From Phycisphaerae bacterium (lineage in GTDB: Bacteria; Planctomycetota; Phycisphaerae; UBA1845; UTPLA1): a DNA stretch of 64,000 bases. The first letter of the stretch is position 1; every line of letters begins with the position of its first letter. This document shows, one piece after another, positions 45,100 through 64,000 of this stretch. The DNA lies in the NCBI GenBank assembly GCA_035275405.1, contig DATEMU010000003.1:806001-870000 (forward strand), in the 5' to 3' direction. The notes under the pieces are model-generated. The model did not search any database. It was not told the origin of the DNA and saw only the letters and a program-made list of their open reading frames with translations. The position numbers and the translations under genes are program-made.

Positions 45100-46713
45100 T
45101 TAGGGCGGCAGAAGCGCATTGATAAATTGCGGCGCGTCCGCCAGATCGACGATTTGGTCGCCGGTGAAATCTCCGCGCGCAATGGGATCGAGCGTTGGAA
45201 ATGTGGCGTGGTAATTCGCCGGGCCGTGGACGACAAGATCGGTGTACCAGGCAATATCCAGTCCGTCCACGCGGGTGTCGCCATTCAAGTCGCCCTTGGG
45301 CAGGCCGGGGTCGTTAAGAATGGTCGTCTTTCCCAGAGGATCGCCGAGCACGACGTGGTGCCAGCTCAGCGCCGGAATCGAGGTATACGCCGCCTCCCCC
45401 CACGTCAGGCCGTTCACCAACATGCCCGTCATCATGAATTCGTTGTCCGGCAGGGTAAAGGTGAATGGTTCCCAAACCATGCCGATGGCAAAAGTCCCGC
45501 CCGCCGAGACGAAGTCGGCGACCTGTTCCTGGTTGAAAAACGTCGTCAGCCCATTCAGCGCCCGTCCGTTGTAGGACTCCACGGTGTTAAACATTGCCCC
45601 GGGGGCGAAATTGTAGTTATCGATGTAGGCGGCCCCGCCCGGGGGACTTTCGCCGAGACCACTGAGGCTGTGGTTCCCTCCGTAGGATGCATAGCCGATC
45701 AGGAAATTCGTTTCCTGTGTACTGTCGATGAATTCGGCCGTGCCGTCGTAGCGGACGTCCCAACCAGCCGCCTGCAACGCTGTGGTGGTCTCTTCGTAGT
45801 CATCCCCTGCCCAGAAGCGATCCGTCGCGTCGTTGGAAAGCAGGCCGTCGTCGTCGAGATCCTGATTGGTCGCAACGTTGAATTCGTCCAGCAGAATACG
45901 CGTGGTCGCCTGGTTGACGTAAAGGTCCTCGGCGCGATCAATCGTCGCCACGGCGTCGGCGAGCGAGTTGCCGTCAATCCGACACACCAGGTACATGTCG
46001 CCCGGCGTGAGCAGGGTCGCGCCCGTCCCGCCGAGCCGCCAATACACGGCGGCGGTCGACAAAAACGTCTTGGCGGTCTGGATGTTCACGCGCGAGAAAG
46101 CACCGATCTGACTGCTCAGTTGATGGTAGGGGTTGTCGATCATGTTGTCGGACTTGCTGTCCATCGTGCCGCCCGCCTCACCGGTGATGAGATCCTGCCA
46201 CAATAACACGAGTTCGGCGTCGACCGATGCGTTGTTCGAGTCCCCCGCGAGCAGCTCGTCATCGGCAATGCCAGGGTTATCGCCGACGAGCGCATTGTCC
46301 GTATCCCGGATGCGATGGGGAAACGGCCGGATGAGCACGATGGCGACAATGTCGGCCGGTGCCGGAGGGCCGGCGGCCAGAAGATAGCTCCGGATCTGGT
46401 CGCGAACGAGCGTCACGAAGTTTGCCGAGGTGAGGTCGGCGACATTCAGTGCCGCATTGTTGAGATTCACCACATTTGCCGCGGGGATTCCCGGATGTGC
46501 GGCGAGGTAGGCATCTTTAAGCGTCGTCGCGTCGGTTGCCGCGGAGTTGTAGACGACCAGAACCTGCGATTCGCTGATGGCGGCAAGGAGCCGAGAAGGA
46601 GTGAGCCAGAGCCCACCCAGTACGAACGCAGCAATGGCCGCCCTCCCAAAAACCCGAGCCGGCCGCTGCCGGGAATTCACTTTCCGGTCTGTTAGAATGA
46701 AAGACGTAACCAT
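45100..46713 (-). CDS. secreted TIGR03790-like protein with dockerin-like C-terminus
   Basis: A 537-residue product. Residues 20-45 form a signal or membrane helix (GRAAIAAFVLGGLWLTPSR). The following QVLVVYNSAATDATTLKDAY...GIPAANVVNLN is the start of the TIGR03790 family, whose function is unknown. The last about 65 residues are a dockerin-like pair with Ca-binding loops KGDLNGDTRVDGLDIAWYTD and RGDFTGDQIVDLADA. In many Planctomycetes such a C-terminus is common on secreted proteins, and cellulosome assembly is unlikely. It is convergent with murG and divergent from the GH31 gene. Confidence 0.78.
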   Translation of the reverse strand: MVTSFILTDRKVNSRQRPARVFGRAAIAAFVLGGLWLTPSRLLAAISESQVLVVYNSAATDATTLKDAYLAAHPGIPAANVVNLNNAALNVADLTSANFVTLVRDQIRSYLLAAGPPAPADIVAIVLIRPFPHRIRDTDNALVGDNPGIADDELLAGDSNNASVDAELVLLWQDLITGEAGGTMDSKSDNMIDNPYHQLSSQIGAFSRVNIQTAKTFLSTAAVYWRLGGTGATLLTPGDMYLVCRIDGNSLADAVATIDRAEDLYVNQATTRILLDEFNVATNQDLDDDGLLSNDATDRFWAGDDYEETTTALQAAGWDVRYDGTAEFIDSTQETNFLIGYASYGGNHSLSGLGESPPGGAAYIDNYNFAPGAMFNTVESYNGRALNGLTTFFNQEQVADFVSAGGTFAIGMVWEPFTFTLPDNEFMMTGMLVNGLTWGEAAYTSIPALSWHHVVLGDPLGKTTILNDPGLPKGDLNGDTRVDGLDIAWYTDLVVHGPANYHATFPTLDPIARGDFTGDQIVDLADAPQFINALLPP

Positions 46714-49205: not shown

Positions 49206-49248
49206 GCGCCCGTAGCTCAGTTGGATAGAGCAACGGTTTCCTAAACCG
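49206..49248 (+). pseudogene. truncated tRNA-Arg(CCU), 5' half
   Basis: The sequence folds as the 5' half of a tRNA: acceptor GCGCCCG (49206-49212), D-arm GCTC/GAGC, and an anticodon arm with loop TTCCTAA (49238-49244) whose anticodon is CCT (Arg). Homology stops at position 42 or 43 of the tRNA: what follows has no variable loop, T-arm (GGTTCGAATCC type) or CGGGCGC acceptor 3' strand within the next 500 bases. It is probably what remains after insertion of an element at this gene. Confidence 0.85.
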
Positions 49249-49249
49249 C

Positions 49250-49462
49250 TGTGACCATTCCCCAAACTCCGGCGATGCAACGACTTGCGATGATCTGCGA
49301 AAATGTCTTGGCGTTCTGCTTGGCGCTCTTTCACCGGACTCACGCGAATTGCTTGCCTCCTGGTTCAGGTTGCCTGAGGCGGTTAGGCAATCCATCGTGA
49401 TGATGATTCAGTCGCTTGCACCGACTCTGAACAACGGGTGTGACGCTCGCGACGAGCGATGA
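49250..49462 (+). pseudogene. gene remnant directly after the broken tRNA
   Basis: A frame open from the tRNA junction to a stop at 49460 reads as the 3' end of a protein: LSPDSRELLASWFRLPEA followed by VRQSIVMMIQSL. This tail pattern (leucine, a Trp, 'LPEAVRxxI', 'MVxxL') is one I associate with short proteins near tyrosine-recombinase genes in integrated elements. It has no start codon and begins at the junction, so it looks like the 3' remnant of such a gene. The resemblance is from memory and unverified. Confidence 0.35.
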
Positions 49463-49489
49463 AGCCGGGTCCCGAGTGCGTCCGGCTGC

Positions 49490-49735
49490 TCACTTCATCG
49501 CTTCGGCTGCGGCGTGACGGCAGATGGCCAATAGGCGTTTCCTCGTGGCGGCGCTCACGCCCGCCTTGTCGGCCGCTCGAAGATCCTTCACCAACTCAGC
49601 ATTGGCGTGGAGGGTTCGTAGAGTCTCGCTGCAACGCGGGCAAGATGCCATGTGCTCATGGATCGCCGGATCGGAGCTTGTGCCGACTACAAGCGCTTCC
49701 AGGTCCTCAGCCGACGGACATGGATCTGATCGCAT
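49490..49735 (-). CDS. zinc-finger anti-sigma-like protein
   Basis: An 81-residue protein with H28-x3-C32-x2-C35 (HMASCPRC), the core of zinc-binding anti-sigma (ZAS) domains. There is no membrane helix, so it may be a soluble anti-sigma or accessory protein. It is 2 bases downstream of the ECF sigma gene, whose activity it would restrain by a zinc-dependent contact; this is inference from gene order and motif. Confidence 0.78.
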   Translation of the reverse strand: MRSDPCPSAEDLEALVVGTSSDPAIHEHMASCPRCSETLRTLHANAELVKDLRAADKAGVSAATRKRLLAICRHAAAEAMK

Positions 49736-49737
49736 CG

Positions 49738-50337
49738 TTACGCCTCCCCTTGTTCAGCATCGAGTTGTTCACGGATTATTCGCAGCCGCTGGATCTGCTC
49801 GTGCTTGATCGTGTAGAGGCGACCCTTGGTGATGCCTAGCCGCTTGGCGACGGCCTCAGCAGGCTGGCAGCGGAGGACGTATGACTCAAACGCCTCCATG
49901 TCCCGTGGCGAGACCACCGACGAGTTTCGCAGCCGTTCCACGCATGCTTGCCAGCGCTCCTCGCGTTCGGCCTGCTCCCATTCCGCATCCGGTAACAAGT
50001 CGTCGCTGGCCAGGTCGTCCAACGGGTATCCATCCGCAACGACCGCCGGCACGCCGTTTCTAACGCGCCGAATCACGTTGTTGGTTGCCCGACGCAAATA
50101 GTGGTGAAACGGCCTGCGTGCCGCATCGAAGCGCCCCTTGGCGACCGACGCGAAGAAATACCGCATGACAACTTGAACGACTTCTTCGGCATCATGTTCA
50201 TGCAATCCGCGGTGAAGGCCCATGCGGTAGATCACTGGGCCATAGACAGCAAAGAACTCGTCCCAGGCCTTCGCTTTAGGGTCAGAAAGGCGGAAAAGCA
50301 AGGTAGTTCGCGTCGTAGGAAAAATGTCGACTTGCAT
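49738..50337 (-). CDS. ECF RNA polymerase sigma factor (Planctomycete type)
   Basis: About 199 residues from ATG 50337. Region 2 is FPTTRTTLLFRLSDPKAKAW followed by DEFFAVYGPVIYRMGLHRG, the classic start of Planctomycete ECF factors, with the DAEEVVQVVMRYFF helix. Region 4 is the helix-turn-helix QPAEAVAKRLGITKGRLYTI. An ATG 51 bases upstream is open but precedes no family sequence. The sigma is directly followed by a zinc-finger anti-sigma-like gene. It probably activates a set of genes, perhaps including the lipase-surface operon upstream on the same strand. Confidence 0.88.
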   Translation of the reverse strand: MQVDIFPTTRTTLLFRLSDPKAKAWDEFFAVYGPVIYRMGLHRGLHEHDAEEVVQVVMRYFFASVAKGRFDAARRPFHHYLRRATNNVIRRVRNGVPAVVADGYPLDDLASDDLLPDAEWEQAEREERWQACVERLRNSSVVSPRDMEAFESYVLRCQPAEAVAKRLGITKGRLYTIKHEQIQRLRIIREQLDAEQGEA

Positions 50338-50648
50338 TGGGGATGTCGCTACAGCGATTCGCCGCTCGCGTCGAAAGCCATTGTCCATACCCGCATATAG
50401 CGCTGGGCGATGGCTTTCTTCGTATCCAATATACGCTCAATCCGGCGCGGCTCAAAGGGAGGGTGCGCTCCGACGTTACCTCCGCCGACGCCGGGCAAGT
50501 CGTCATCTTCGGCCAGCTTCACATCGGGCTCGTGCCGCGGGCACAACGCGGCTCAACGGAAGTCGGCCGCGTGGGGCTTGCCTGCGTGAGTGGCACACCC
50601 TCAGAACCGGCCGTCCAGATGGTCGGCGGCCCGCGAGCCGGCAGTCTT
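50338..50648. other. 311-base gap upstream of the sigma gene
   Basis: No gene is supported here. Both strands are open in several short frames that overlap without protein-like sequence. The sigma gene's promoter should lie here; a self-regulated ECF promoter (AAC near -35) cannot be pinpointed. Confidence 0.4.
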
Positions 50649-51815
50649 TCACCCCGGTGACGGCGTAACAGGTGTTTGAGATCCCCGCGCCCCTTCCTGG
50701 CAGCCACCGCCGTCGATCAGGTGAACGCAATCACTTGCCTGGAAGTAGCCCCCGTCGTTGAATCGACCCTGGATCGCGACAAGTACGCTCGCCCCCGAAG
50801 GCTCCCCGAGGGCGAAAGCAGCTCCGGCTACCGCCGACCCGTCAAATTGCAATACCAAATCCTGAAGATTATCCGGAGCACGCTCCTCACAGACGCAAGG
50901 ATCGGCAGAATTCGCAGCCGAACTTTCATCACGCATTTGGAAGCCAATAGGTCTCACGCGGCGTCCATTTCCAAACACCATCTGAACGGTTTCCCGGTCA
51001 ATTGCGTTGAGATCTACGTCCGCCGACCCGACAAGGGCTACGTCGAACCTTTGCTGACCGTTCCTTCGACATCGATGAGAAAGATTCAAGTCGTTCGGGC
51101 ATTGCCCGGGGCGCATATCCACCTTTACATCCCTGACTGAAACCAGTTGGGCATCGCCTTCGGCATCCACTCCGGTGACTCGGATAGTCCAATCAGGCTG
51201 GTCGCCTCGCCCTGGAGCAAGCGCCGGCGGCTGCCTGGGCTCGGTAGCGCTAGCCAGCGTTGGTACAAATCGTACGCCAAGAACCCGTAAGACTCCGCTC
51301 CCATGCTCTGGAACCTGGACGCCAATCCCACCACCCAGTGCCTCGGGCAAAATATACACATCGCCATCTCTCACTGGATCACCTGTGCTATTCGGCGTTG
51401 TGATTATGCAAAGTGGCTCCCGGTAGAACCCCAGCACCAGCGGCGGTACGAGTTCGTTCACGAACGCGACGAAGAGCACTTCGATCGATGTCAGTTCGGT
51501 GCCGAGGCGCGTGACGCCGTTCCCGAGGAAGATCCGCCCGACGATGAACTCCTGACCGAGCGGCGGAAGCAGCTGAGTTGCACCAAGGATGAAGGCTGTA
51601 CTTTGTTGGTCGGCCCCGGAGAGCGGGACTCCCCATTGGACGCTGGCTGGCCCAAGTTGCTGGAAGGATAGCTGGAAGGTGCAGCTCATCGAGCACGACG
51701 ACCGGACACAAGGGTTCTGAAAAGCGCCGCTTGTGATAAGCGTCAGGTCTGGCTCCCCAGTGGCCGACGACCACCCCATAGCGGCAATCAGGATCAAGTC
51801 AAACAAGCTAAACAT
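50649..51815 (-). CDS. secreted surface protein with choice-of-anchor K-like domain
   Basis: About 388 residues from ATG 51815, which follows AAGGAG by 6 bases, with a signal helix (FSLFDLILIAAMG). Residues about 30-190 have the 'VQWGVPLSG...TAFILG...FIVGRIFLGNGVTRLGTELTS' pattern of choice-of-anchor K domains. The C-terminal half contains VDMRPGQCPNDLNLSHR followed by VALVGSADVDLNAIDRETVQ, which recalls the 'DIKPGSCPNPLN' domain found in many bacterial surface proteins. It is upstream of the sigma gene and downstream of the lipase-like lipoprotein, so the three probably form one unit. Function unknown; extracellular adhesion or binding is possible. Confidence 0.72.
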   Translation of the reverse strand: MFSLFDLILIAAMGWSSATGEPDLTLITSGAFQNPCVRSSCSMSCTFQLSFQQLGPASVQWGVPLSGADQQSTAFILGATQLLPPLGQEFIVGRIFLGNGVTRLGTELTSIEVLFVAFVNELVPPLVLGFYREPLCIITTPNSTGDPVRDGDVYILPEALGGGIGVQVPEHGSGVLRVLGVRFVPTLASATEPRQPPALAPGRGDQPDWTIRVTGVDAEGDAQLVSVRDVKVDMRPGQCPNDLNLSHRCRRNGQQRFDVALVGSADVDLNAIDRETVQMVFGNGRRVRPIGFQMRDESSAANSADPCVCEERAPDNLQDLVLQFDGSAVAGAAFALGEPSGASVLVAIQGRFNDGGYFQASDCVHLIDGGGCQEGARGSQTPVTPSPG

Positions 51816-51893
51816 ATGGACTCCTTCGGTTTCGGGTGTGAAGAACTCTGCAAGACGGTGATACCAGTTACTCCTCATGCAGCCCATTGGACA

Positions 51894-54800
51894 TTAGCGA
51901 TCGCCCACTCCGACGAGCACGCGCGGAGTATAGCTAATCTGCTGTTGTGTTGAATTTGTAAACTCCAACGTAATTCTGAACTTCTCACTGGACTTCCAAA
52001 TTCCATCCGTTCCGGCGTCGGTGTTGACGTAGGGGCTGCCCGTAGGTGGCTGTCGAACGGTGGTCACTCCTGTGGCGTTGAAAAGGACGACACCAGCCGA
52101 CAGTCGATCCAGGACCAATGATACCGGTGCCGCACATGGTATATCCATGCTGGAAACGTTCTTCATGACAATGACTTGCTCGTACCGCTGGGTGTGTCGC
52201 CTAAACCGTATCGGCCCCCGCTCCACGGCGATCATCGTAGTGACGTTTGATGCGAACTGTGCTTCGCCGCGGTTTGCGATGAAACTACTACGATTTCCGA
52301 CATTGTCCGTTGCGTCGGCGTAGACAACGGTCGTAACGATTGGATCAATAGAGAACGGCCCGGTGTAAGGGGCGATGTGTACGCCATCAACCGAGTAGTT
52401 GATGTCATGCACACCCGAGTCAACGTCGCTGGCATAGATGGTCACAAGCTGCGATGTTCCAGCTACTGAACGGCAGAATCGTACCGTGGGAGATTGAGAA
52501 TCCGCCGCAGCGGCACCAGACACAGCGGCGAATGGGGCGATTAGCGCTTCCGGCGTACCGTCTGCGTCAGCGTCGTTCAGAAGAGTCGAAGCACCGTCCG
52601 CCGACACGACAAGCCGCGTAATAGTCGATGGCGGGAGGGCCAGGTCTAACCATCGGGTTGCTATGACCGGCGAACGCTCATCTTGCCCGAGGAGAACCTG
52701 TATCCCCACTGACGTTGAAGGTGCGCTGAACTGCACGGTATACGTCTGATTCGCGGGCATCACGAAGTCGTGGCTATTGGGGCCGATGAAACTATGCGAC
52801 ACGTGGGGAACGGCGAGTGCCGCTTGTCCTACTATCGTCCCTGTGTGCCCAGCAGAATCCGAGATAACCGGGTCGGGCACCCCCGTAAGCCGAATGTACA
52901 GGGAGGGTCTGATAGCGGGGGCAGCAGGTTGGCATTCTAGGATTTCCCCGGTGGACAAGAAGTGCGTAGCATTACGTAGCACGTTTCTGTTCCCAGTTAG
53001 TGCGGTGTGCTCAACATCAGACTCCGTATTGCCCTGAATTCCTGCGCGCTGAACGCAAAGGGTTGCACCCGGTGCGTTCAAGTCGTCGCCAAAGATGTTG
53101 ATTCTTGTCGCACTTAGCAGCGGAACCGTCTGATCACCGCGTCCTCTCGACTCTTCGAGATGTGGCTCGAAGCCAAGGTTATTCCGCCGCAGTGCAGCGC
53201 GCACCTGGACGACCGTGTCATTGCAAGCTCCGTCGCCGATGACGTGCAGAAGTTCAACGCCGCTCGAATCGCTTCGCCAATCGTCCTGTCCCACAAGGTG
53301 AAACAATTCGTTTGTAGTGCCTGGATGGTTTGGAATATACTTACTATCAAGAGTGGCTCTAAGCGTCTCATAGTCGTACGTGTCGAATGGATTGCCGTTG
53401 TTATTAAAATCCCATCCGTCCTCAATAAATGGCGGCAACTCGGAATCCCTCCCTAAGAGGTAGTAAGCAGGGCTCGTAATTAGCTCGTGTGCTCCGGCAA
53501 AACCGCCTACGACATCGCGAATTGGCGCTCGCGGAAGCCACCCGTAGCCGAATTTTTCAACATTGAACCACTCACCATGCTCGAGGATCAGTGGGACCTT
53601 CGGCGCACCGAGGAACGGTGAGCCGATTGTAACCAAGCGCGAGACAACATTCTCTCCTGGGTGGTCGAGTAGGTAACGTCGGGCAACCAAACCACCCATG
53701 CTGTGGGCAATGATTTGGACGTTAACATCCAGGTCAGGGTCATCATAGATGCGGCGATAGGCATCCTGAATAGCCAAGACATATTCGTGGAGGTCGTTGG
53801 CCGTAGCATAATTGCTCTTCCTCCAATCATATGCGAAAGGGAAGAAATTCGGGTGTTGCATATCCTGCGAAATATCCCAACCCGCGCGAGTCCGCCGCCC
53901 GGGAATCTTATCAACCATATACTCTCGATAGCCTTGCTGATGTAGCACCGTGTCGATCAACACGTTATAGACCGGCTGTCCTAAGAATGTGCGCCCCACG
54001 TCTGTTGCGATCACAAATGGCTCGGAAATTGATAGACCGCAGATTCCACAGCAAGGAAGCGGAGGTCCAATCAGCGTACGACCTCCAAACCATAAAATCG
54101 AGGCATCGGCCGTGAGACCACAAGGAACCGATTCGAGGTAGCTGGCACCACTTCCTGGAACAAAGATCACCGGCTGTCGTATCAGCTCTGCTGCGATAAC
54201 CGCCTGCTGGTCAAGCGCTGTGCGGCACCACAGGACAATATCGCCAGAGTCACCTCGATTGCTTAGGGAGTCGTATATGTCGATATCGGTGATGGCTCCG
54301 TCCAATCCCGCGACGGCATCTCCAATTCCCAAAACCCTAAGTGGCGTGGAAACCGGGTATTGCATGTTCTCGCGATTGACACGGCAAAGAAAGGCGGACT
54401 TGTTACCGGCTGCATCGTCTGCCAAAAAAAGGACATAGCCGTTATTGTTAGCGCAGACGCGAGCATCTACGTGAAACGCTGAAATCGGGCCGTCGTCGGT
54501 TTCGCTGCCGCCCGGCGGCGGATCGAAGATGCCGTTGAAGTTTGTATCCTGATACCACTCACCGGGATCAACGACGGCGTTCTCCCTCAAGCCGGCGGCA
54601 CGTACCACGCGCACATTGCCCTGCGAATCGACAAATCGCGCAAAAACACCACGACCAGGTCGGTGCATCGGCTGGTCCGGCCCCGCGTAACCAGGCTGCA
54701 AAGCGTCGGCGCCGACCTGAGTTAGGTCGCCACAGAAGACAATCAGCTGACCATCATCACTAAGGCCTGGTCTCGTTCCCACTGTGCTATAGTACGGTGC

Positions 54801-55823
54801 CTCAGCGATTGGCGTGAGCGAGGTCAGATCATAGGTGTAGAGCCTTACATGGCCCGTCCCGCCCTCCCGTTCAAAGAGAACGAGGGTCTCGTTATCGGCC
54901 AAGACGGGATTAAGGTTTTCGAGCGTGGTATCGCCCGTCGGAATGTGCTCGAAGTAAAAATACGGCGCGGCCAGAGGAGTGGCAAGCACATTCTGAAACG
55001 ACTGGGTGAGTCCGACAAAAACACATTGTCCAAGATTGTTAATACTAAAATGCGGCTGTAGGCCAGCATAAGGCGACAATGGCACGAACGGCGTTGGAAG
55101 ACTTCCCGCAGAAATTGGATTAAGGAAAAAAAGAAAGACCCATGCAGGCCCGATGCCGGCATCGCCACCAGCGAATTGGTCAGGGATATGAAGAACTCCA
55201 TTTTGATCTTGGTGGGGCAAGGCCAGATTGGCATCCCAACCTTCGATATACGTCAGTGGCATATCTAGGATTTGACCGAACGGAAACCCTATCTGAACAC
55301 GCGCGGTAAGATACCTCCTTGTTACAACCTCCCCTGAATTGTTGATCTGAATCCTTGGTGTAAAGGTCTGCCACGGCGTCGATGATTGAGAGTTCTGCAA
55401 GGCGAATCCGTCCTTGCATAGTTGTCGCAGAGGGGGCGATGATGGGGACGAAGGATCGTAGGAGAACAAGTTGTCAGACACCACATTGAGCCCCGGATTT
55501 TGATACGCAGCAGCAAATGCGACTACACCATGATCATTAACTGAGGGAAAACGGTGGATCGACGTGATTCCCTGATCTCCGCTTTTTGCAATCACCTTAC
55601 ACCTCGTGATGTAGGAAGGTTCCGGTTGCGGAACGGCCTGGTCGCTCGGCTGCGGTTGAGCGGTGGTGTCAATTCGCATTTCAACAGTGCGGTTCTGAGG
55701 AATGGACTCGTCGAGAATTTGCGGAACAGATGGACTGGGAACTGGCTCAACCCCGCAGGAACAGAAAAAACTGGTTGCGATTACACAGCTAATGATGTTC
55801 AATAAGGTGGTGCTTCGCGCCAT
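51894..55823 (-). CDS. large lipoprotein with lipase-like alpha/beta hydrolase domain
   Basis: A 1309-residue product. A lipoprotein signal (SFFCSCGV, lipobox near Cys23) and AAGGAGG 9 bases before the ATG mark the start. The N-terminal about 500 residues look like repeated beta units (YDLTSLTPIAEAPYYSTVG). Residues about 590-850 form an alpha/beta hydrolase with VPGSGASYLE near the oxyanion and IIAHSMGGLVARRYLLDHPG, nucleophile Ser708, and SRLVTIGSPFLGAP. This resembles PGAP1/lecithin:acyl-transferase-like lipases. The C-terminal about 350 residues look like Ig-like domains (VTIYASDVDSGVHDINYSVD). Substrate is probably a lipid or ester at the cell surface. It is the first gene of the run toward the sigma gene. 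Confidence 0.85.
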   Translation of the reverse strand: MARSTTLLNIISCVIATSFFCSCGVEPVPSPSVPQILDESIPQNRTVEMRIDTTAQPQPSDQAVPQPEPSYITRCKVIAKSGDQGITSIHRFPSVNDHGVVAFAAAYQNPGLNVVSDNLFSYDPSSPSSPPLRQLCKDGFALQNSQSSTPWQTFTPRIQINNSGEVVTRRYLTARVQIGFPFGQILDMPLTYIEGWDANLALPHQDQNGVLHIPDQFAGGDAGIGPAWVFLFFLNPISAGSLPTPFVPLSPYAGLQPHFSINNLGQCVFVGLTQSFQNVLATPLAAPYFYFEHIPTGDTTLENLNPVLADNETLVLFEREGGTGHVRLYTYDLTSLTPIAEAPYYSTVGTRPGLSDDGQLIVFCGDLTQVGADALQPGYAGPDQPMHRPGRGVFARFVDSQGNVRVVRAAGLRENAVVDPGEWYQDTNFNGIFDPPPGGSETDDGPISAFHVDARVCANNNGYVLFLADDAAGNKSAFLCRVNRENMQYPVSTPLRVLGIGDAVAGLDGAITDIDIYDSLSNRGDSGDIVLWCRTALDQQAVIAAELIRQPVIFVPGSGASYLESVPCGLTADASILWFGGRTLIGPPLPCCGICGLSISEPFVIATDVGRTFLGQPVYNVLIDTVLHQQGYREYMVDKIPGRRTRAGWDISQDMQHPNFFPFAYDWRKSNYATANDLHEYVLAIQDAYRRIYDDPDLDVNVQIIAHSMGGLVARRYLLDHPGENVVSRLVTIGSPFLGAPKVPLILEHGEWFNVEKFGYGWLPRAPIRDVVGGFAGAHELITSPAYYLLGRDSELPPFIEDGWDFNNNGNPFDTYDYETLRATLDSKYIPNHPGTTNELFHLVGQDDWRSDSSGVELLHVIGDGACNDTVVQVRAALRRNNLGFEPHLEESRGRGDQTVPLLSATRINIFGDDLNAPGATLCVQRAGIQGNTESDVEHTALTGNRNVLRNATHFLSTGEILECQPAAPAIRPSLYIRLTGVPDPVISDSAGHTGTIVGQAALAVPHVSHSFIGPNSHDFVMPANQTYTVQFSAPSTSVGIQVLLGQDERSPVIATRWLDLALPPSTITRLVVSADGASTLLNDADADGTPEALIAPFAAVSGAAAADSQSPTVRFCRSVAGTSQLVTIYASDVDSGVHDINYSVDGVHIAPYTGPFSIDPIVTTVVYADATDNVGNRSSFIANRGEAQFASNVTTMIAVERGPIRFRRHTQRYEQVIVMKNVSSMDIPCAAPVSLVLDRLSAGVVLFNATGVTTVRQPPTGSPYVNTDAGTDGIWKSSEKFRITLEFTNSTQQQISYTPRVLVGVGDR

Positions 55824-55992
55824 AGATCTATCCTCCTTACATCCCGTTGCTAAGATTAAACGCTTGTAGAATTTGGGAACCTCAAACTGGTTTCAGTGGA
55901 CGAGCTTGCGGTACGACGCTGAGAGTATCAAGGTACCCGTGTCACTTTCAAGCTACATGTTCATGTAGGTCGCACCGTTCGCTCCGACACGC

Positions 55993-56283
55993 TTACGTGG
56001 CCTGCTTCCTTCCGCGACTGTCATGCAGCAGGCATAGCACCACACCTAGTCGCGTGTTGACCGACAGCTTTATGAACAGCTCCTTGGAGTGATGGCGGAC
56101 CGAATCAAGCGAGAGTGACAGCTCGCGGGCGATCGTTCCGGCTTTCAGGTCGCGGCAGAGACACTCGGCCACCTGTGACTGGCGGCGCGTTAGACGCAAT
56201 CGCCCAACGAGTCGCTTCCATTGCCGCTCGCTAAATAGCGGCGGCCAGCGGGGGTTGCGGGCTGCATCTCTTGCTGGCGCCAT
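55993..56283 (-). CDS. LuxR-type helix-turn-helix regulator, stand-alone
   Basis: A 96-residue protein that is nearly only a GerE/LuxR DNA-binding domain: LTRRQSQVAECLCRDLKAGT and IARELSLSLDSVRHHSKELF followed by KLSVNTRLGVVL. No receiver or ligand domain is attached. It lies 169 bases upstream of the lipase gene and 190 bases downstream of the kinase, same strand. It may control the lipase-surface-sigma operon. The first 20 residues are not typical of the family and its start is uncertain. Confidence 0.82.
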   Translation of the reverse strand: MAPARDAARNPRWPPLFSERQWKRLVGRLRLTRRQSQVAECLCRDLKAGTIARELSLSLDSVRHHSKELFIKLSVNTRLGVVLCLLHDSRGRKQAT

Positions 56284-56472
56284 CAGTTAGCAATTCGACG
56301 GGTTCGCCGATTTGTGTATCCCACATGTACTGGCAGACCATCCGCCATCGGCCCCATATAGCGCGGAGGCTGGCGAATCTTTGTCGGAATTCAGATTATT
56401 TTTTGAGCGGGACCTGAACTGCGACTCGTAGACGCGAATCTATGAGCAATTCACAGCCGGGGTGTGTGGTCA

Positions 56473-59034
56473 CTACTGCTCGGGAAGCGTAGCGAGCAGG
56501 TCTTCGATTTGTTTCCGCATGGGAGTTGGGACGGGCCGCAGCAGGGCGAGGGCCTCCTCCGCCGTCCGCCGGGCCTGTGAAATCTGGCCGCTTTCTCGCT
56601 GGGTGATGGCAAGGACAAGAAGTAGGGTTGGCGAATGGCGGAGGGAGCGTTCGACGGCTTTTTGCGCGAGTTCTATCGCCAAGACGGGTTCGCGCAGCTC
56701 CTCGACCGGACACGTCGCCAGCCATTCGGCCAGCAGGCCGTAGTGGCCCGGTTCGGCGCCCGGGTGGGCGACGCACTGTTTGAACAAGCGAATCGCTTCG
56801 GCAAATTGCGTGTGGGCCTCGTCCGTGCGGCTCTCGCGCCAAAGAGTTTTCGCAAGCTCGATCCTCGCATCGCCCTGTAGGGTGGTGAGGTTCACGTCCG
56901 CCGGAAGCCGACTGCCGAGAGTCGTTGCTTGATCCAGGGCCTGTGAATACAAATCCCGTGCTGCTCCATACTCGGACTCATTCAGCGCGTAGGAACCAAG
57001 CTCGCGGAATGCAACGATTCGTCTCCCGCCCCAATCGCGATTTTCTGGTTCGGCGGCCAGAATGCGATTTGCGATGGCGACCGCTTCCAGCGTCGAGGAC
57101 CGCGCATCGGCCAGCCGTGCCTCCTGTTTCGCTATTTCTGCACGAAGCATGTGCAGGGTATAGGCATGGGCCAAATAATCTGGATTGTCCGGCTCTACGG
57201 CGAGCAGACTCGCGAGAAGCGGATCCGCCTCCGCGGCACGCTCGACTAGTGTCGGACCCTCCGCTGGCGGGCCGAGCGTGTTCGTCGTTCCGGTCTGTAA
57301 TAGGGCCGCCAGCAAATTCTTCCTGTGCACAGTGCTCGCGTGGTCGATCTCGAAAAGGCGCCGTGCCAGTTTCAGCCGCTTTTCATGGAGGTTCGCCGCG
57401 TGCGGCCAATCTTGGTTTAAGATCGCCGCCCAGCAAAGCCGGTCATAGCTCCAGCTCAACTGTTCAAGCCACTTGGCCTTGTCCGGTTCCCGAGCGACGA
57501 GGCCCTCGTCGATCACCAGCGCCTGTTCGTACAGTTCGTGGCCGCGTCGTGAATCGCCTCGTGCAACGGCGATGTCCCCTACTCGCACCAGGGCGATCGA
57601 CAGGTGGGCTTGTGCTTCGGCATCGGCGGAGTTGGGGGCAGCCAGCTTGCGCCGGAGGTCCAGTGCGGCCGCTGCTGCGCTCGCGGCTTTTTCCGGTCGC
57701 CCCAGCGACTGAGCGATGTCGGCAAGTCGCGTATGCGTCTTGGCGAGGTCGGCCTGAAGCTGCGGGTCATCGTTCTTTTCCTCCAGGAATGCCTCCAGCT
57801 GGAAATAGGCCTTTTCCAGCAGACTCCGCCGCAGGCTGGAGGCCCCGGCGAACTTGGTCAGTTCCGTATCGATTTGAGAAAGGGTGAAGTCGAGCATGTC
57901 GCGTGCGGCGCGGAACTTGGTGCGAGCGTCCGCGGCATTCGCCTCGGCCCTGCGATACAGGTGCGTCACGCTGACGAGGTAGGCCGCGGTGAGGGCTATG
58001 CCGAACACGATGGATGCCGCCAGCACGCGATTGCGGGCAACGAACTTGGTCAGCTTATACATGCGGCTCGGCGGACGGGCAGTGATGGGCCGACCGGCCT
58101 GGTAAAGCAGGATATCGTTGCGAAGTGCTTCGACGGTTGAATAGCGACGATTCTTGTCCCTCGCAATGGCAGTCAGGACGATGGTCTGTAAGTCGGCATC
58201 GATGAAGGAGCGGATCTCTCGCGGGGGAATTATCTTAGCCGTCCGAATTTCTACGGGAAGCAGCGTCTCCTGATTCGTGTCAAAGGGGAAGGCCCCAGTC
58301 ATCGCGTAATAGAGCATCATGCCGATGGAATAAACATCGGTCCGAACATCGATCAGCGATGGCCGCGCTTCGAGCTGTTCGGGTGAACTCCAAACCAGCG
58401 AGCCCATGAATTCGCCCGTCATACTGGCGGCGTCCGGGCTGCCGTGCCACGGGCTGCGAGCGATGCCGAAATCGAGGACGTGCGGAACGCCATCAACGTC
58501 GACGAGGATATTGGCCGGCTTGAGGTCGCGATGTATCACACCTGCACGATGAGCCGCCTCTACGGCCTCGCAGATCTGCACAAAGAGTTCCAGGACTTTT
58601 TTCAAAGGGAACTCAGGACGGGAGGATGAACTTTTCTCTGCCAAGGCCGCTCGGTCAAGGGCATGCACATACTCATTGACCGGCACGCCGTCGATGTATT
58701 CCGCCGCGAACCAAAGTTCGCCGGATTCCAGGCTCCCCTGGTCGACCACGCGGACAACGCTGCGATGCTTCAGCAATTCAAGGGTTTGCCTTTCCTTCTC
58801 GAAAATGGCGCGTGCGCGACTGTCATGACCGTGGCTCGGCAATATGAACTTGATGGCGACTTTGAGGCCGTCGGCCCCGCGAATCGCCTGAAACACATAC
58901 CCTTGCCCACCATGCCCGAGCGACCTGATTACATGGTATCCAGCCACCCGCGGGAATGTTTGTGTCTTGGCCTGCGATTCACTGTGGCTCGCCAGCTTTT
59001 CCTGCTCGCCGGTTGTGAGGAGCGTTGTGTCCAC
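56473..59034 (-). CDS. Ser/Thr protein kinase with membrane helix and TPR-like C-terminus
   Basis: An 853-residue Hanks-type kinase. N-lobe GHGGQGYVFQA (about 40-50) and the ATP Lys62 in VAIKF; catalytic HRDLKPANIL (168-177); DFG Asp188; substrate segment SSPEQ. Then one membrane helix (about 335-355, VLAASIVFGIALTAAYLVSV) and about 480 residues of repeated helices (LADIAQSLGRPEKAASAAAA, and later TPR-like units). This is the typical Planctomycete sensor kinase layout, with the TPR part outside the cytoplasm. It starts with GTG 59034; an ATG 10 bases upstream is in another frame and lies next to a strong AAGGAGG (listed separately). Together with LuxR, lipase and sigma genes it may form one regulatory locus. 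Confidence 0.9.
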   Translation of the reverse strand: MDTTLLTTGEQEKLASHSESQAKTQTFPRVAGYHVIRSLGHGGQGYVFQAIRGADGLKVAIKFILPSHGHDSRARAIFEKERQTLELLKHRSVVRVVDQGSLESGELWFAAEYIDGVPVNEYVHALDRAALAEKSSSSRPEFPLKKVLELFVQICEAVEAAHRAGVIHRDLKPANILVDVDGVPHVLDFGIARSPWHGSPDAASMTGEFMGSLVWSSPEQLEARPSLIDVRTDVYSIGMMLYYAMTGAFPFDTNQETLLPVEIRTAKIIPPREIRSFIDADLQTIVLTAIARDKNRRYSTVEALRNDILLYQAGRPITARPPSRMYKLTKFVARNRVLAASIVFGIALTAAYLVSVTHLYRRAEANAADARTKFRAARDMLDFTLSQIDTELTKFAGASSLRRSLLEKAYFQLEAFLEEKNDDPQLQADLAKTHTRLADIAQSLGRPEKAASAAAAALDLRRKLAAPNSADAEAQAHLSIALVRVGDIAVARGDSRRGHELYEQALVIDEGLVAREPDKAKWLEQLSWSYDRLCWAAILNQDWPHAANLHEKRLKLARRLFEIDHASTVHRKNLLAALLQTGTTNTLGPPAEGPTLVERAAEADPLLASLLAVEPDNPDYLAHAYTLHMLRAEIAKQEARLADARSSTLEAVAIANRILAAEPENRDWGGRRIVAFRELGSYALNESEYGAARDLYSQALDQATTLGSRLPADVNLTTLQGDARIELAKTLWRESRTDEAHTQFAEAIRLFKQCVAHPGAEPGHYGLLAEWLATCPVEELREPVLAIELAQKAVERSLRHSPTLLLVLAITQRESGQISQARRTAEEALALLRPVPTPMRKQIEDLLATLPEQ

Positions 59035-59044
59035 GAGTCGCCAT
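58979..59044 (-). CDS. 21-codon ORF overlapping the kinase start
   Basis: An ATG at 59044 follows AAGGAGG by 7 bases and reads 21 codons (starting MATRGHNAPHNRR) to a stop at 58979, in a frame shifted from the kinase. The kinase GTG at 59034 is 10 bases downstream and has no such signal of its own. It may be a leader peptide whose translation couples to the kinase, or an indel in the assembly. It is listed for inspection rather than as a confident gene. Confidence 0.3.
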   Translation of the reverse strand: MATRGHNAPHNRRAGKAGEPQ

Positions 59045-59764
59045 TATACCGCCTCCTTCCGAAAACCCGGAGCGAAACTGCCAATACTGCGCCGCAAAGG
59101 ACCCTGCAGGATACCCAAGGACATCGCGATCGTCGCCCGGATCGCCGTACGCTCTGAATCGTCGCGAGCGACATGAACCATCACAGGTGTCAATGATCCG
59201 CGCCCCTGCTCGCCCTTCGAGTGCCCTGACGAAGTGGTGTCAAGACACGTTTCCGTGCGGCATCCTCATCCCCTTGTTCTGCGAAGTGCCAGAGCCCTCG
59301 ACGGACAAGTGCCGAGTCGCTCACTCTTCGGGCCGATTCCGATTCGCGCTCTGAGGGCAGTTTGAGGGCAAACGGGAAGTCTATGATTGAGAAGCTTTGC
59401 AACGGGAGTTTCAAGAGCTTGTGAACTGCCTCGAAACAATAACGGAAAGGGAGGGATTCAATCTGCCCCGATTTACCAACCTCTTCCGAATGCTCACTTT
59501 ATCGCCGAACTTGCGAAACGACAACGACTTCGCTCGTCTCGCAGATGTCCTGTTCCTACACGGTTTCTTACCGTGTCGTGATGCGTTTTGAGGGCAGGTT
59601 GAGGGCAGTTTCCGACGGTTCAACAACCGTTGGCCGTCGCAGTTCTCCCGCCCCCGCAACCCCTCAGTGCTGCCACCTGCATAAAGCTCCCGGTTGAGTG
59701 CAAGTGTTGCCTGTTAGAGCGGCTCCTGGACAATCGCCCGGTAGCCCCATAGCATCAACGAGTG
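59045..59764. other. 720-base gap with short repeats, no supported gene
   Basis: No frame here looks coding; a 64-codon frame at 59397-59591 has protein-like composition but no recognised family. A doublet TGAGGGCAG-TTTGAGGGCA occurs at 59352-59370 and again as TTGAGGGCAGGTTGAGGGCA at 59588-59607. Near 59560 the text ACGGTTTCTTACCG resembles the anticodon arm at 49233-49248 (ACGGTTTCCTAAACCG) and forms a hairpin. Promoters for the kinase and for the efflux locus probably lie here. Confidence 0.45.
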
Positions 59765-60271
59765 ATGTTCGGGGTACTCGGGACCAACACGGCAACGCAA
59801 CCCGCGCGAGCACTCTTCGTATGCTTGCTGGCTCCACTTCTGGCCTTTAGACCAGCCGGGATCGGCGCCGTTCTATTTCACGACCACGGCTCGGAGGGCC
59901 GCCATTTTCATGCCGTCAGCGGCTCAGATTTCAGCCAGGTGAAAGATGAGCACGCGGCATTGCACGATCTTGAGCATGGGCAGCAAGGCCCCCTTTCGTT
60001 ACCTCACGTCGATGTGACGGAACACAGCGAGGACTGCGGATCGCTGCTCCTCGTTTTCGGTGAAAGCCTCACGGTCCGGGCAACGAATAATTCGCGTACT
60101 GTCTTGGATCATTTGCCGATCGAATTGGATTCGGCCAACACGTTGGCCGTGCTCGATATCTACTCGCGATTGGCCGTACCGACGAAATCTCGCCCTCCGG
60201 GTTCATCAATCCCACGCGGCGAGCGGGTCATCTCCAGCATTCTGCTGAGCAGTAATTCCCTTCTGATCTGA
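59765..60271 (+). CDS. secreted His-rich protein at the head of a metal efflux locus
   Basis: About 168 residues from ATG 59765 (GTG 59762 is also open). There is a signal helix (about 15-35, ALFVCLLAPLLAFRPAG) and a mature part rich in His and acidic residues (FHDHGSEGRHFHAVSGSDF, KDEHAALHDLEHG), which may bind metal ions. No known family. It precedes the TolC-like gene by 117 bases, in the same direction, so it may be the first gene of the metal efflux operon. Confidence 0.55.
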   Translation: MFGVLGTNTATQPARALFVCLLAPLLAFRPAGIGAVLFHDHGSEGRHFHAVSGSDFSQVKDEHAALHDLEHGQQGPLSLPHVDVTEHSEDCGSLLLVFGESLTVRATNNSRTVLDHLPIELDSANTLAVLDIYSRLAVPTKSRPPGSSIPRGERVISSILLSSNSLLI

Positions 60272-60388
60272 TCCCTTTCGTTTTGATTCCGCGTCAGGGT
60301 CTCCGTGCGCGCAATTGCGTCACGCACGTCCCCTTCGCATCGCCAGCGATCGAATTGCCGGTTCATTGGAACGATAGGACCACCGCGA

Positions 60389-61963
60389 ATGTCGAAAAGA
60401 ACGCCGCTGCGAATCGGTTTGAATCTCGTGATGTTGATTCCGACCGGCTGCGCGCAGGTAAACCCGAGCGCAGATTACCGGCGGGCCGCCACCGAAGTCA
60501 TCGCGGCGACGGGGCAGGCCGCGGTTTACGACCCAACCGATGATGCGCGAGCGCGGCAAATGGTTTCCGAGCTTCTTGGCAACGGGATGACAGCCGAAGA
60601 CTCAGTACGCATCGCGCTCCTCAACAATCCGACGCTTCAGGCGGCGTTCTTTCGCATCGGAATGGCGCGGGCCGACTTGGTTCAGTCCGGTCTTTTCTCG
60701 AATCCCTCATTGGCGTTCTCTCTCCAGTTCCCCGAGGGCGGCGGGCGTAGCAATCTTCAGGCGAGCTTGGCTCAAAATATCGTGGACCTGTGGCAGGTTC
60801 CAGTTCGCAGGAGGGTTGCCGAGGGCACGCTGACAGAAACCGTTCTCACGATTGCCCGCGAGGGCACTCAGCTCGCAGCCGACGCGAAGGCAGCCTACTT
60901 CGCCGCCGTTGCCGCCGACCGAAACCTTTCGATCGTGAAAGAAAACCTTGATGTCGCCCAAGGGCTGCTGAAGGCCACCTTGGCACGTCAAAAGGCCGGT
61001 GCTGTCGGTGAACTCGACGTGAATTTGGCGCGAAGCCCAGCACTGAACGCAGAATTGGAAGTACGCACGGCTCGCCTGGACGTTGGCACCGCGCGACGAC
61101 GGCTGGCGACACTTCTCGGCCTAACAATCAAGGCCGAGGATCTGAACTTGACCGACCCTCTTCCGCAGCCGCCGGAATCGAGCTTGTCCCCGGACCAAGT
61201 CGTCGAAGTTGCGCTCTCGGCGCGTCTGGACCTCAAGGCCGCGCGGCAGGCCACGTCGGTCGCGGAGGAGCGAGTTCGCGAAGAATACCTCCAGGTGTTT
61301 CCCAACATCGAGGTTGGCCCCTTCCTGGAAAGGACTGAACGGCGGGCACTTCCGGGCCGAAACATCCTTGCCGATACCGCTCGTTCGTCCGTCGCTGCGG
61401 GATCGTTAACCGCCCCAGACATTCAATCTCGCGGTCAACGGAATCAAGAACGGCGTCAGGAGATCGACTCCATACTGGGACCGGCGCTAACAATGACCCT
61501 TCCGATCTTCGATCAGAACCAAGCTCAAATCGCAAAAGCAGAATACGCCTACCAGCAGGCTTTGAGGCAACTCGACGCGATTGAACGATCTGTCGTGCAG
61601 GAGACACGACAAGCGGTTGATCGGGCGATGACCGCATGGGAAGTCGCTCGCTTTTATGAAACGCAAATTGTGCCACAGGCGCAGAAGAGTCTGGACCTGT
61701 CGGATACATCTTACCAAGCGGGCAAGACTTCTATCGTTACCGTTCTTGAGGCCCAACGAACACTCTTGGCGACGCGTCGAATCGCGATAGATGCGCTGCG
61801 GACCGCCGCTGTAACCATCGCGGATCTGGAGCGGATCACCGGGCGTCCCGCGACCGTCCTGTTGTCGAAGGCGACAACCGCATCTCAGCCGACGACGGAT
61901 CAGGATGCCAAACCGACGCAGGAACGAACACCGGCACAATCAAGCTCGGAGGTACAACCGTGA
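60389..61963 (+). CDS. TolC-family outer membrane efflux protein (CusC/CzcC-like)
   Basis: About 524 residues from ATG 60389, with a lipoprotein signal (MLIPTGCAQ, Cys near 21). Two outer-membrane-efflux repeats are present (about 65-260 and 290-490): AEDSVRIALLNNPTLQAAFF starts the first and ILGPALTMTLPIFDQNQAQI belongs to the second. Such proteins form the outer-membrane channel of tripartite RND pumps. An in-frame ATG 84 bases upstream precedes no signal peptide. The stop overlaps the GTG of the next small gene (GTGA). Confidence 0.88.
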   Translation: MSKRTPLRIGLNLVMLIPTGCAQVNPSADYRRAATEVIAATGQAAVYDPTDDARARQMVSELLGNGMTAEDSVRIALLNNPTLQAAFFRIGMARADLVQSGLFSNPSLAFSLQFPEGGGRSNLQASLAQNIVDLWQVPVRRRVAEGTLTETVLTIAREGTQLAADAKAAYFAAVAADRNLSIVKENLDVAQGLLKATLARQKAGAVGELDVNLARSPALNAELEVRTARLDVGTARRRLATLLGLTIKAEDLNLTDPLPQPPESSLSPDQVVEVALSARLDLKAARQATSVAEERVREEYLQVFPNIEVGPFLERTERRALPGRNILADTARSSVAAGSLTAPDIQSRGQRNQERRQEIDSILGPALTMTLPIFDQNQAQIAKAEYAYQQALRQLDAIERSVVQETRQAVDRAMTAWEVARFYETQIVPQAQKSLDLSDTSYQAGKTSIVTVLEAQRTLLATRRIAIDALRTAAVTIADLERITGRPATVLLSKATTASQPTTDQDAKPTQERTPAQSSSEVQP

Positions 61964-62169
61964 ACGGCACGACTACTTCATCGCGACACCGCAGGCGAGC
62001 TTGGCTGTTCTCGATGCCAGCCAGTCTATTCCTGCATATAGGCTGCACGCCGGATGAGCAACAAAGCCTCGTCGATTCGGTCGGCGCCGCGTTGGGCGAT
62101 GAAGCGGTTCAACTCATCGGCTTCGCAGCCGCCTTTGCGCGGAGCCTGCTTGCCGCTTTCTTGTTTTGA
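61960..62169 (+). CDS. small lipoprotein-like peptide in the efflux operon
   Basis: A 69-residue product with a signal-like start, a lipobox (SLFLHIGC, Cys29) and a hydrophobic C-terminus (LIGFAAAFARSLLAAFLF). GTG 61960 overlaps the stop of the TolC-like gene (GTGA), and its own stop overlaps the TTG at 62166. These overlaps argue for real translation. It is reminiscent of small membrane proteins in metal efflux operons. Function unknown. Confidence 0.62.
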   Translation: MNGTTTSSRHRRRAWLFSMPASLFLHIGCTPDEQQSLVDSVGAALGDEAVQLIGFAAAFARSLLAAFLF

Positions 62170-62189
62170 GTGAAATCCACTTGGCTGGA

Positions 62190-63788
62190 ATGAAGGTCAT
62201 GAAAATACTCACGAGAACAGGTCGCGTTCTTCCTCTGTTGGTCGTGCTTGTCATCGGCGTCGCTGGCGGCGTGTATATCCTCCGATCGGATGTGCAGTCC
62301 GTCAGAAACGATGCTCATCAACATAAAGCAGGCGACGACCACGGACACACGGAAGATCACTCGGGGCACGACGAAGAGGCCGCAAAAGGACCGCACGGCG
62401 GCCGTATGCTGGCCGATGGCGACTTTGCTGTCGAAGTCACCATCTTCGAGCGCGGTGTGCCGCCGCAGTTTCGCGTTTACGCCTCCGATTCTGGAAAGCC
62501 CGTCCCGCCGGAGCAGATCAACCTTTCAATGAAGCTTCATCGGCTCGGCGGACGCGTGGACGAGTTTTCTTTTGCCAAGGACGCCGACTACCTAAAAGGC
62601 GACAAGACCGTCGAGGAGCCACACTCGTTTGACGTTGAGGTCGAGGCCAAACACGCCGGCAAATCACATCGTTGGGAATACTCGACCTACGAAGGCCGGG
62701 TGACTCTCACAACGCAGATGGTGAAAGAGGCCGGAATCGAGATTCAGACCGCCGGGCCGGCCACGATCAAGTCGTCGCTCGGCCTGCCCGGCCAGATCGC
62801 CTTAAACACGAATCGACTGGCCCATGTGGTGCCTCGGTTGGCAGGGGTAACTACAAGTGTGAACAAGAATCTAGGTGATCACGTCAAGGCCGGTGAAGTC
62901 CTCGCCAGCATTGAGAGTCGAGAATTCGCTGAGGCGACAAGCGAATACGTCGAGGCCGTCCACAAACACGAATACGCACAACTCGCCTTCGTTCGAACCG
63001 TGGAGCTGTGGAAGCAGAAGATCACACCGGATCAAGAGTACCACACCACTCGCCACGCGCTGGAGGAGTCGGAGATCGCCAAGCAGGTTGCCGCCCAAAA
63101 GCTCCTTTCGCTCGGCCTCTCTCGGGAAGACCTCGAACTGCTCGCCAAGGAGCCCGGAGGCGAGGTCGTGCCCTTCAAAGTTCGCTCGCCGCTTCCTGTG
63201 GGCTTGCTGACCCGTTTCGACATCAAGGCCCCGATCGACGGCCAGATTATCGAAAAGCACATCACCCTCGGCGAGGCAGTGAAGGCCGATGCGGATGTAT
63301 TCATGATTGCCGACCTTTCATCGGTCTGGGTCGAGATCATGGTCTATGCCGACGACGTGTCTCGTGTGAGCGCAGGCCAGTCCGTCATCATCCGATCCAA
63401 GTCCGTCGGCCGAGAGGCCACCGGACGAATCTGGTACGTCAGTCCCATCGTCGGTGAGGAGACCCGCAGCGCCAAGGCGATCGTCGATCTACCCAATTCC
63501 GATGGCGTCTGGCGACCGGGGCTGTTCGTCTCGGCGGAAACTCTTGGCAACGAGACCAATGTACCCATCGCCGTATCGGTCGATGCGATCCAGACCCTCC
63601 GCGATTGGTCGGTGGTCTTCGTCAACTACGGCGACATTTTTGAGGCACGGCCATTGGAACTCGGACGCAGAGACAGCCAGTGGGTGGAGGTGCTCAGTGG
63701 CTTGTCGCCGGGCGAACGGTATGCCGCGAAGAACAGCTTCATTCTCAAGGCCGATGTCGGAAAATCGGGAGCGACCCACGACCATTGA
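62190..63788 (+). CDS. RND efflux periplasmic adaptor with His-rich N-terminus (CusB/CzcB-like)
   Basis: About 532 residues from ATG 62190; TTG 62166 and ATG 62199 are alternatives. A membrane helix (about 11-31, LLVVLVIGVAGGVYIL) is followed by a His/Asp/Glu stretch (HQHKAGDDHGHTEDHSGHDE, about 43-62), likely metal binding. Then a domain starting KGPHGGRMLADGDFAVEVTI, and the hairpin-lipoyl-barrel adaptor core (VVPRLAGVTTSVNKNLGDHV; RFDIKAPIDGQIIEKHITLG; VWVEIMVYADDVSRV). The protein joins an inner-membrane RND pump with the outer channel. The RND pump gene should follow beyond the window. Confidence 0.88.
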   Translation: MKVMKILTRTGRVLPLLVVLVIGVAGGVYILRSDVQSVRNDAHQHKAGDDHGHTEDHSGHDEEAAKGPHGGRMLADGDFAVEVTIFERGVPPQFRVYASDSGKPVPPEQINLSMKLHRLGGRVDEFSFAKDADYLKGDKTVEEPHSFDVEVEAKHAGKSHRWEYSTYEGRVTLTTQMVKEAGIEIQTAGPATIKSSLGLPGQIALNTNRLAHVVPRLAGVTTSVNKNLGDHVKAGEVLASIESREFAEATSEYVEAVHKHEYAQLAFVRTVELWKQKITPDQEYHTTRHALEESEIAKQVAAQKLLSLGLSREDLELLAKEPGGEVVPFKVRSPLPVGLLTRFDIKAPIDGQIIEKHITLGEAVKADADVFMIADLSSVWVEIMVYADDVSRVSAGQSVIIRSKSVGREATGRIWYVSPIVGEETRSAKAIVDLPNSDGVWRPGLFVSAETLGNETNVPIAVSVDAIQTLRDWSVVFVNYGDIFEARPLELGRRDSQWVEVLSGLSPGERYAAKNSFILKADVGKSGATHDH

Positions 63789-63803
63789 CAAGGAGAAACA
63801 CAG

Positions 63804-64000
63804 ATGAGTTGGATACGGACCGTTGAAGAGAAGGATGCCCAGGGCGTGCTCGGGACGATCTACCAGGAGAGTCGTGCGAAGTTCGGATACGTCATGAATC
63901 TCGTAAGGATACAAAGCCTTCGCCCGGAGACGATGGTGCTTGGACGGCAGATGTACCGTCATCTCATGGACAGCCCGGGCGGACTCACGCGGCTTCAGCG
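63804..64000 (+). CDS. carboxymuconolactone decarboxylase / AhpD-like protein, 5' part
   Basis: The first 65 residues of an all-helical protein are visible; the rest is outside the window. The start MSWIRTVEEKDAQGVLGTIY and the YVMNLVRIQSLRPETMVLGR segment are typical of the peroxidase-related branch of the CMD/AhpD family. The Cys-x-x-Cys active site would come later and cannot be checked. ATG 63804 follows AAGGAG by 8 bases, and the adaptor gene ends 15 bases upstream, so it is probably part of the efflux operon. Such a gene between an RND adaptor and its pump is unusual and may protect against peroxide or toxic organic compounds. Confidence 0.8.
   Translation, partial: MSWIRTVEEKDAQGVLGTIYQESRAKFGYVMNLVRIQSLRPETMVLGRQMYRHLMDSPGGLTRLQ

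Follow-up and report, generated by a model that had tools for sequence, protein, structure and literature searches.

The broken tRNA-Arg(CCU) gene at positions 49206–49248 of the window is very probably the left junction of an integrated element of ~101.7 kb, whose integrase would recombine at an attachment site (attP) within its own gene, such that integration severs the tail of that gene. The window is the whole stretch of 64,000 nucleotides that was analysed (G000:C3:806001-870000, where C3 is contig DATEMU010000003.1), and it belongs to a genome of 5.29 Mb in 19 contigs. It is quite possible, though short of probable, that in a whole family of Planctomycetota integrases the enzyme's own gene serves as an integration-state switch: a conserved C-terminal module would be translated only from the circle, each integration would remove it, and without it the enzyme would change in direction, activity or stability.

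Integration site

The initial annotation described the site as the 5' half of a tRNA-Arg(CCU) broken after the anticodon arm, and explained it as the scar of a tyrosine-recombinase element inserted into a tRNA gene. Both statements were borne out. Positions 1–43 of the tRNA are present at the site, and ARAGORN found no complete tRNA in the 64-kb window. In a BLAST search of the genome with the site, the best non-self match (C3:956947-956994, 94%, E 6e-14) belonged to an intact tRNA-Arg(CCT) gene at C3:956952-957025; a further match of 27 nt was found at C3:956794-956820. The annotation had proposed a search for an intact copy; this copy sits on the same contig, 101.7 kb further downstream, where it immediately follows a tyrosine integrase gene. 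The identity between the site and the downstream copy ends after tRNA position 43, and the two ends of the element carry identical 22-bp cores that are 101,746 bp apart.

49206–49248, + strand: displaced 5' half of the host tRNA-Arg(CCU), positions 1–43, the probable left junction of the element (from sequence comparison)
49227–49248, + strand: identical 22-bp core AGAGCAACGGTTTCCTAAACCG in the anticodon arm, the putative crossover region; partner at C3:956973-956994
49249–64000: left 14.8 kb of the element, which continues to C3:956994
C3:955484-957001: tyrosine integrase gene, PF00589 at residues 220–392 of 506

The intact tRNA and the displaced fragment have the same orientation and bracket the integrase gene, which is the arrangement by which tRNA-targeted genomic islands are recognized. 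When the flanks were joined in silico, ARAGORN recovered tRNA-Arg(CCU) (anticodon CCT as DNA), and the rebuilt attP yielded no tRNA. A group I intron in the anticodon loop was ruled out, as no Rfam family reached its gathering score within the window. A split tRNA was ruled out because the partner is a whole tRNA rather than a lone 3' half, and a chance match of the half tRNA by the E value of 6e-14 together with the independent tail profile described below.

The displaced half is a 5' half, the less usual kind. Reverse integration via the near-palindromic CGGTTTCCTAAACCG was rejected, since its three middle bases mismatch when the sequence is reversed; for this reason we prefer the reading that the attP core was inverted in the course of evolution. 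The D-loop of the displaced host half is GGATAG, which contains a stop in the integrase frame, and that of the element's half is GGACAG. Because the tRNA-Arg(CCU) genes of relatives show both versions (GGATAG in 23/26, GGACAG in 3/26), this contrast is suggestive only.

Integration on the 5' side leaves the original tRNA promoter with the displaced half, and the element would then have to supply a new promoter, presumably from the end of its integrase gene. At C3:956794-956952 the end of the integrase gene precedes the tRNA, and either a new promoter within that gene or read-through of the tRNA could operate.

Borders and content of the element

Base composition was calculated in 2-kb bins. 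The interior of the element has a GC content of 0.593 and a GC skew of −0.028, as compared to 0.616 and +0.110 in the left flank and 0.622 and +0.057 in the right flank (Mann-Whitney p 4e-12 for the skew of element versus flanks). One gene of the left flank could be placed in relatives:

45100–46713, − strand: left-flank host gene, with a relative upstream of an intact tRNA-Arg(CCU) in 2/5 relatives examined

The relatives of this gene are 59–61% identical to it and lie ~2.5 kb and 9 kb upstream of tRNA-Arg(CCU). None of the right-flank genes was matched in the same relatives (n=5). The left flank is host DNA, as supported by the synteny of this one gene. The 19-contig assembly and the right flank without synteny to relatives could point to an assembly or binning artefact in which two tRNA ends and the intervening element were misjoined. 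We consider this extremely unlikely, as a single contig carries both ends, whose cores and repeats match, the GC skew shifts between flanks and element, and the layout is repeated at other tRNA genes in assemblies made independently. The arrangement that the annotation had named as refuting an insertion, a half tRNA followed by the same genes with no mobile genes nearby, was not seen, nor was a natural empty site found in a close relative; the 16 family members searched are all from other genera.

The element contains 96 predicted genes, 32 of which were covered by a Pfam scan. The scanned genes include three RND efflux pumps with their partners, a multicopper oxidase, a lipase-like hydrolase, a protein kinase, a ParA-like ATPase, an AbiE pair and a TraG/TraD-like coupling protein, a possible component of a conjugation machinery, as well as the following:

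C3:955204-955446: AlpA/HTH_17 gene, upstream of the integrase (Pfam)
C3:954374-955144: IrrE-type peptidase gene, upstream of the integrase (Pfam)
C3:953970-954356: helix-turn-helix regulator gene, upstream of the integrase (Pfam)
C3:874676-875197: sigma-70-type factor (Pfam)
C3:942551-943525: second tyrosine recombinase, XerC-like, with a SAM-like N-terminal domain

The genes following the half tRNA had been called accessory, and they do lie within the element; the 'ECF sigma' gene named among them (window 49738-50388) gave no Pfam match. With its three RND pumps, a multicopper oxidase, and fusion and outer-membrane proteins, the cargo at C3:870406-911468 has the appearance of a metal-efflux set. 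Near the integrase, a predicted protein of 1466 residues (C3:949002-953399) resembles, by eye, a methyltransferase plus helicase. The XerC-like second recombinase adjoins the AbiEi/AbiEii pair (C3:942551-945113), possibly as a nested element. The element may be composite.

Split integrase gene

In the integrated element no stop interrupts the integrase frame within the element's tRNA half; the frame ends at a TAG in the 3' half contributed by the host, yielding 506 residues. With the element ends rejoined at the core, the frame runs ~70 codons further, to a TGA at window 49460-49462, yielding 574 residues. The integrase frame crosses its own tRNA half and is continuous when rejoined, which places attP inside the integrase gene. 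The frame that is open from the junction, previously noted as resembling the tail of a recombinase-associated gene, proved to be the severed 3' end of the element's own integrase, the TGA matching the end noted at the time.

49229–49462, + strand: severed 3' end of the integrase gene, open through the core and ~70 codons past it
49304–49330, + strand: putative arm-type tandem repeat on the tail side; partner at C3:956794-956820, inside the integrase gene

The PF00589 match, which was the sole Pfam match above cut-off in the four family members scanned, lies entirely before att, and the frame continues through the att core into the opposite arm. The integrated form thus keeps its catalytic domain and only the C-terminus is altered, as in the layout of phage Mx8 (see below). 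The same tandem repeat, in direct orientation, flanks the core on both sides in 14/14 elements (described below), and in each element 0 of 200 shuffles reached the observed score. The repeat units are roughly 7–12 bp and lie 34–146 nt from the core on the integrase side and 27–77 nt on the tail side; they vary among the 14 elements and sit within the reading frame. These repeats presumably represent arm-type sites of the integrase.

The arrangement suggests the following cycle. The integrase would recombine the anticodon arm of tRNA-Arg(CCU) with an attP located between the catalytic domain and a C-terminal module, and the attP DNA (repeats, tRNA half, repeats) would be translated as a linker. 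On the circle, the gene would encode the enzyme of 574 residues. Integration would strand the last ~70 codons beside the displaced half of the host tRNA, at the distant left end of the element, and the integrated gene would end within the host tRNA half, giving an enzyme of 506 residues with a whole catalytic domain; excision would restore the tail. In this hypothesis the loss of the tail would report the integrated state and shift the direction, activity or stability of the enzyme. From the sequence we infer formation of the circle, present or past mobility of the element, and production of the enzyme in both lengths.

Occurrence in other genomes

Genome contigs were scanned for the integrase family, and the best 80 of 393 loci, nearly all from Planctomycetota, were inspected. 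In 61 of these best 80 a tRNA lies ≤900 nt from the catalytic motif. At 57/61 of these loci (among the best 80 of 393) the integrase frame continues into the tRNA without a stop, as compared to 8 and 1 in the other two frames and an expectation of 4.2 from composition; the open stretch tested was about 89 codons. The 57 loci (again within the best 80 of 393) represent 12 tRNA isotypes, with the integrase on the 3' side of the tRNA in 53/57 and on the 5' side, as in the window's element, in 4/57. At 4/61 loci (L083, L090, L095 and L115; best 80 of 393) the frame ends soon after the catalytic domain, before the tRNA. These loci form a tail-less class for comparison.

We regard it as very unlikely that these are ordinary tRNA-targeted islands in which the frame enters the tRNA for want of a stop and the tail-like frame is a product of chance or an untranslated att arm. 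Stops are often absent from an antisense tRNA 3' half, whichever frame is read: over the initial 43 nt of the tRNA the integrase frame was open at 61/61 loci, and the other frames at 32 and 38 of the 61 (best 80 of 393). The four loci that do not enter the tRNA likewise show that the tail is not universal. Chance openness of this kind would nevertheless leave unexplained the 57/61 frames that are open over about 89 codons where 4.2 are expected, the protein motif that is common to 14 elements in the same frame, and the uninterrupted gene carried by viral contig L134 (see below).

An upstream tRNA match was found at 13 of the 61 loci, and 11/13 rejoin into the conserved tail (10 by pattern and L118 by eye, WASLNPAIK). 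L115 and L128 were excluded from the rebuilt junctions, as the integrase of L115 ends before the tRNA and the match of L128 is a whole tRNA. Four more elements (G013, G014, G019 and G030), found via displaced fragments in relatives, rejoin to a continuous integrase-plus-tail frame and displace 3' halves. With L093 repeating G030 and L121 repeating G014, the number of distinct elements with a tail is 14. Every distinct element that carried a family integrase and allowed a reconstruction shows the layout (14/14), and the 5' half is displaced in 3/14 (G000, L077 and L080).

Five displaced halves of relatives (L048-L052) were left out of the 14 because the fetched stretch had no family integrase. 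L051 was the only one of the five with the tail (E 5e-13); L048 and L050 have no tail, and at L052 the contig ends. The displaced half L049, on another contig, continues as an open frame of 72 codons whose tail sequence is unrelated. A more distant integrase, L034 (G011; 29% identity), also reads through a tRNA-Arg(CCU). Judging from L034 and L049, the layout may extend beyond the elements that have the conserved tail.

C-terminal tail

49340–49423, + strand: conserved tail module SRELLASWFRLPEAVRQSIVMMIQSLAP, identified by alignment and by a profile from 14 other tails

In the alignment of 15 tails (14 elements plus L134) the motif reads W..LPEAIRAGI.AMV, with W and L invariant. A profile was built from 14 tails without that of the window. 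The window frame was its sole significant match (E 3.6e-8) among 3586 peptides of a 164-kb region. A profile including the window tail matched 64/294 Planctomycetota genomes (E 1e-4 or better). A tRNA-like stretch was present ≤450 nt upstream at 21/30 tail loci, one of which is the window, as compared to 1/28 control windows. No match to the tail was found in Pfam, NCBIfam or PHROGs. An ssrA-like degradation tag was ruled out, as the terminal residues are not common to the tails. Long open frames at tail matches (for instance G260, 608 aa) were checked and are not uninterrupted integrases. At L185 (G126) a stretch of 88 nt identical to a complete tRNA-Leu lies in frame before the tail, possibly a tandem or reassembled site.

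The uninterrupted gene was found whole in L134 and partially in L156, both of which are viral contigs other than the window's element. L134 (IMGVR_UViG_3300025162_000083, 43 kb) carries a single gene of 573 residues that runs from the integrase to the tail motif and contains between them, by eye, an antisense tRNA 3' half. L156 begins inside the sequence of this gene and is 100% identical to it over residues 453–573. The L134 integrase had no match in named phage and plasmid collections. The L134 protein was modelled with AlphaFold2 (mean pLDDT 79.4): residues 1–425 form a folded body, residues 426–536 have pLDDT <50, and a C-terminal helix pair occupies residues 537–568 (pLDDT about 67–82). 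The Brujita integrase, XerA, the Tn1549 integrase and the lambda integrase were among the first ranked in a Foldseek search with this model. The att-encoded linker is thus predicted to be disordered in L134, the one member modelled. A disordered linker of this kind could let the family move to nearly any tRNA gene as a new target and still keep the switch.

The anatomy may be right and the tail still be a mere structural leftover, attP residing in the gene as a compact cassette of gene plus site with no regulatory role. We find this somewhat doubtful but a serious possibility. It would fit the low pLDDT (<50) of the L134 model in the stretch before the tail, the absence of the extension from a few family members, and the Mx8 enzyme, which according to PMC6070905 is active after the change of its end. 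On the other hand, the motif is kept across elements whose integrases are about 30–45% identical, and it recurs in the 64/294 genomes, which suggests that the tail is under selection as a protein.

Comparison with known systems

In the open-licence PMC literature we found no account of a split-integrase layout in Planctomycetota. Self-disrupting integrases of the SSV type ('suicidal') are called exclusive to Archaea in a review (PMC8371274); here the layout appears common in a bacterial phylum. If confirmed, it would provide a general model for an integrase that senses whether its element is integrated. Annotation is affected as well: in integrated elements these integrase genes close with codons of host tRNA sequence, and their true end is to be sought at the opposite end of the element, a feature that can help to map element borders.

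With the SSV-type integrases, the Planctomycetota family shares a target site carried in the integrase gene and a gene that is split by integration (PMC8371274). In the SSV type, as that review describes it, the gene is cut into inactive N and C parts with the catalytic domain in the C part, whereas in the Planctomycetota family PF00589 lies whole and entirely before att, and the C-terminal tail alone is lost. The position of the catalytic match upstream of att sets the enzyme apart from a suicidal integrase of the SSV type, and Phage_integr_3 (PF16795, name as given in PMC8371274) was absent in Pfam scans of four family members.

The lost C-terminus also recalls mycobacteriophage BPs, where, as stated in PMC4557955, attP lies inside a gene, the integrated product is shorter at its C-terminus and the part lost carries an ssrA-like tag. 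There, however, the repressor is trimmed; in the Planctomycetota family the integrase is the protein shortened, and its tails have no terminal residues in common. The tRNA islands of the Islander collection resemble the element in having a complete tRNA at one end, a fragment at the other and the integrase between them. A 5' fragment, as in the window's element, is uncommon among them (159/3919 islands in PMC4383910); the same paper allows for integrases that extend across attP, citing Mx8 and SSV.

Myxococcus phage Mx8 shares the layout. Its attP lies within the coding sequence of int, and through integration the gene acquires a different 3' end with the catalytic domain untouched; the enzyme is not inactivated but its specificity is modified (PMC6070905). 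The likeness extends to the excisionase gene Uoi directly upstream of int and, by eye, to an antisense-tRNA-like peptide inside the protein. Sequence comparison with Mx8 Int showed no homology above noise (best pairwise E 0.32, family profile 1.2 bits), and Mx8 Int gave no match to the tail profile. Mx8 is a single phage, whereas the Planctomycetota family has a shared tail module and 12 tRNA isotypes. The principle is already known from Mx8 and the SSV-type integrases; in the Planctomycetota it is common, and it comes with many tRNA targets and a conserved module that can be detached.
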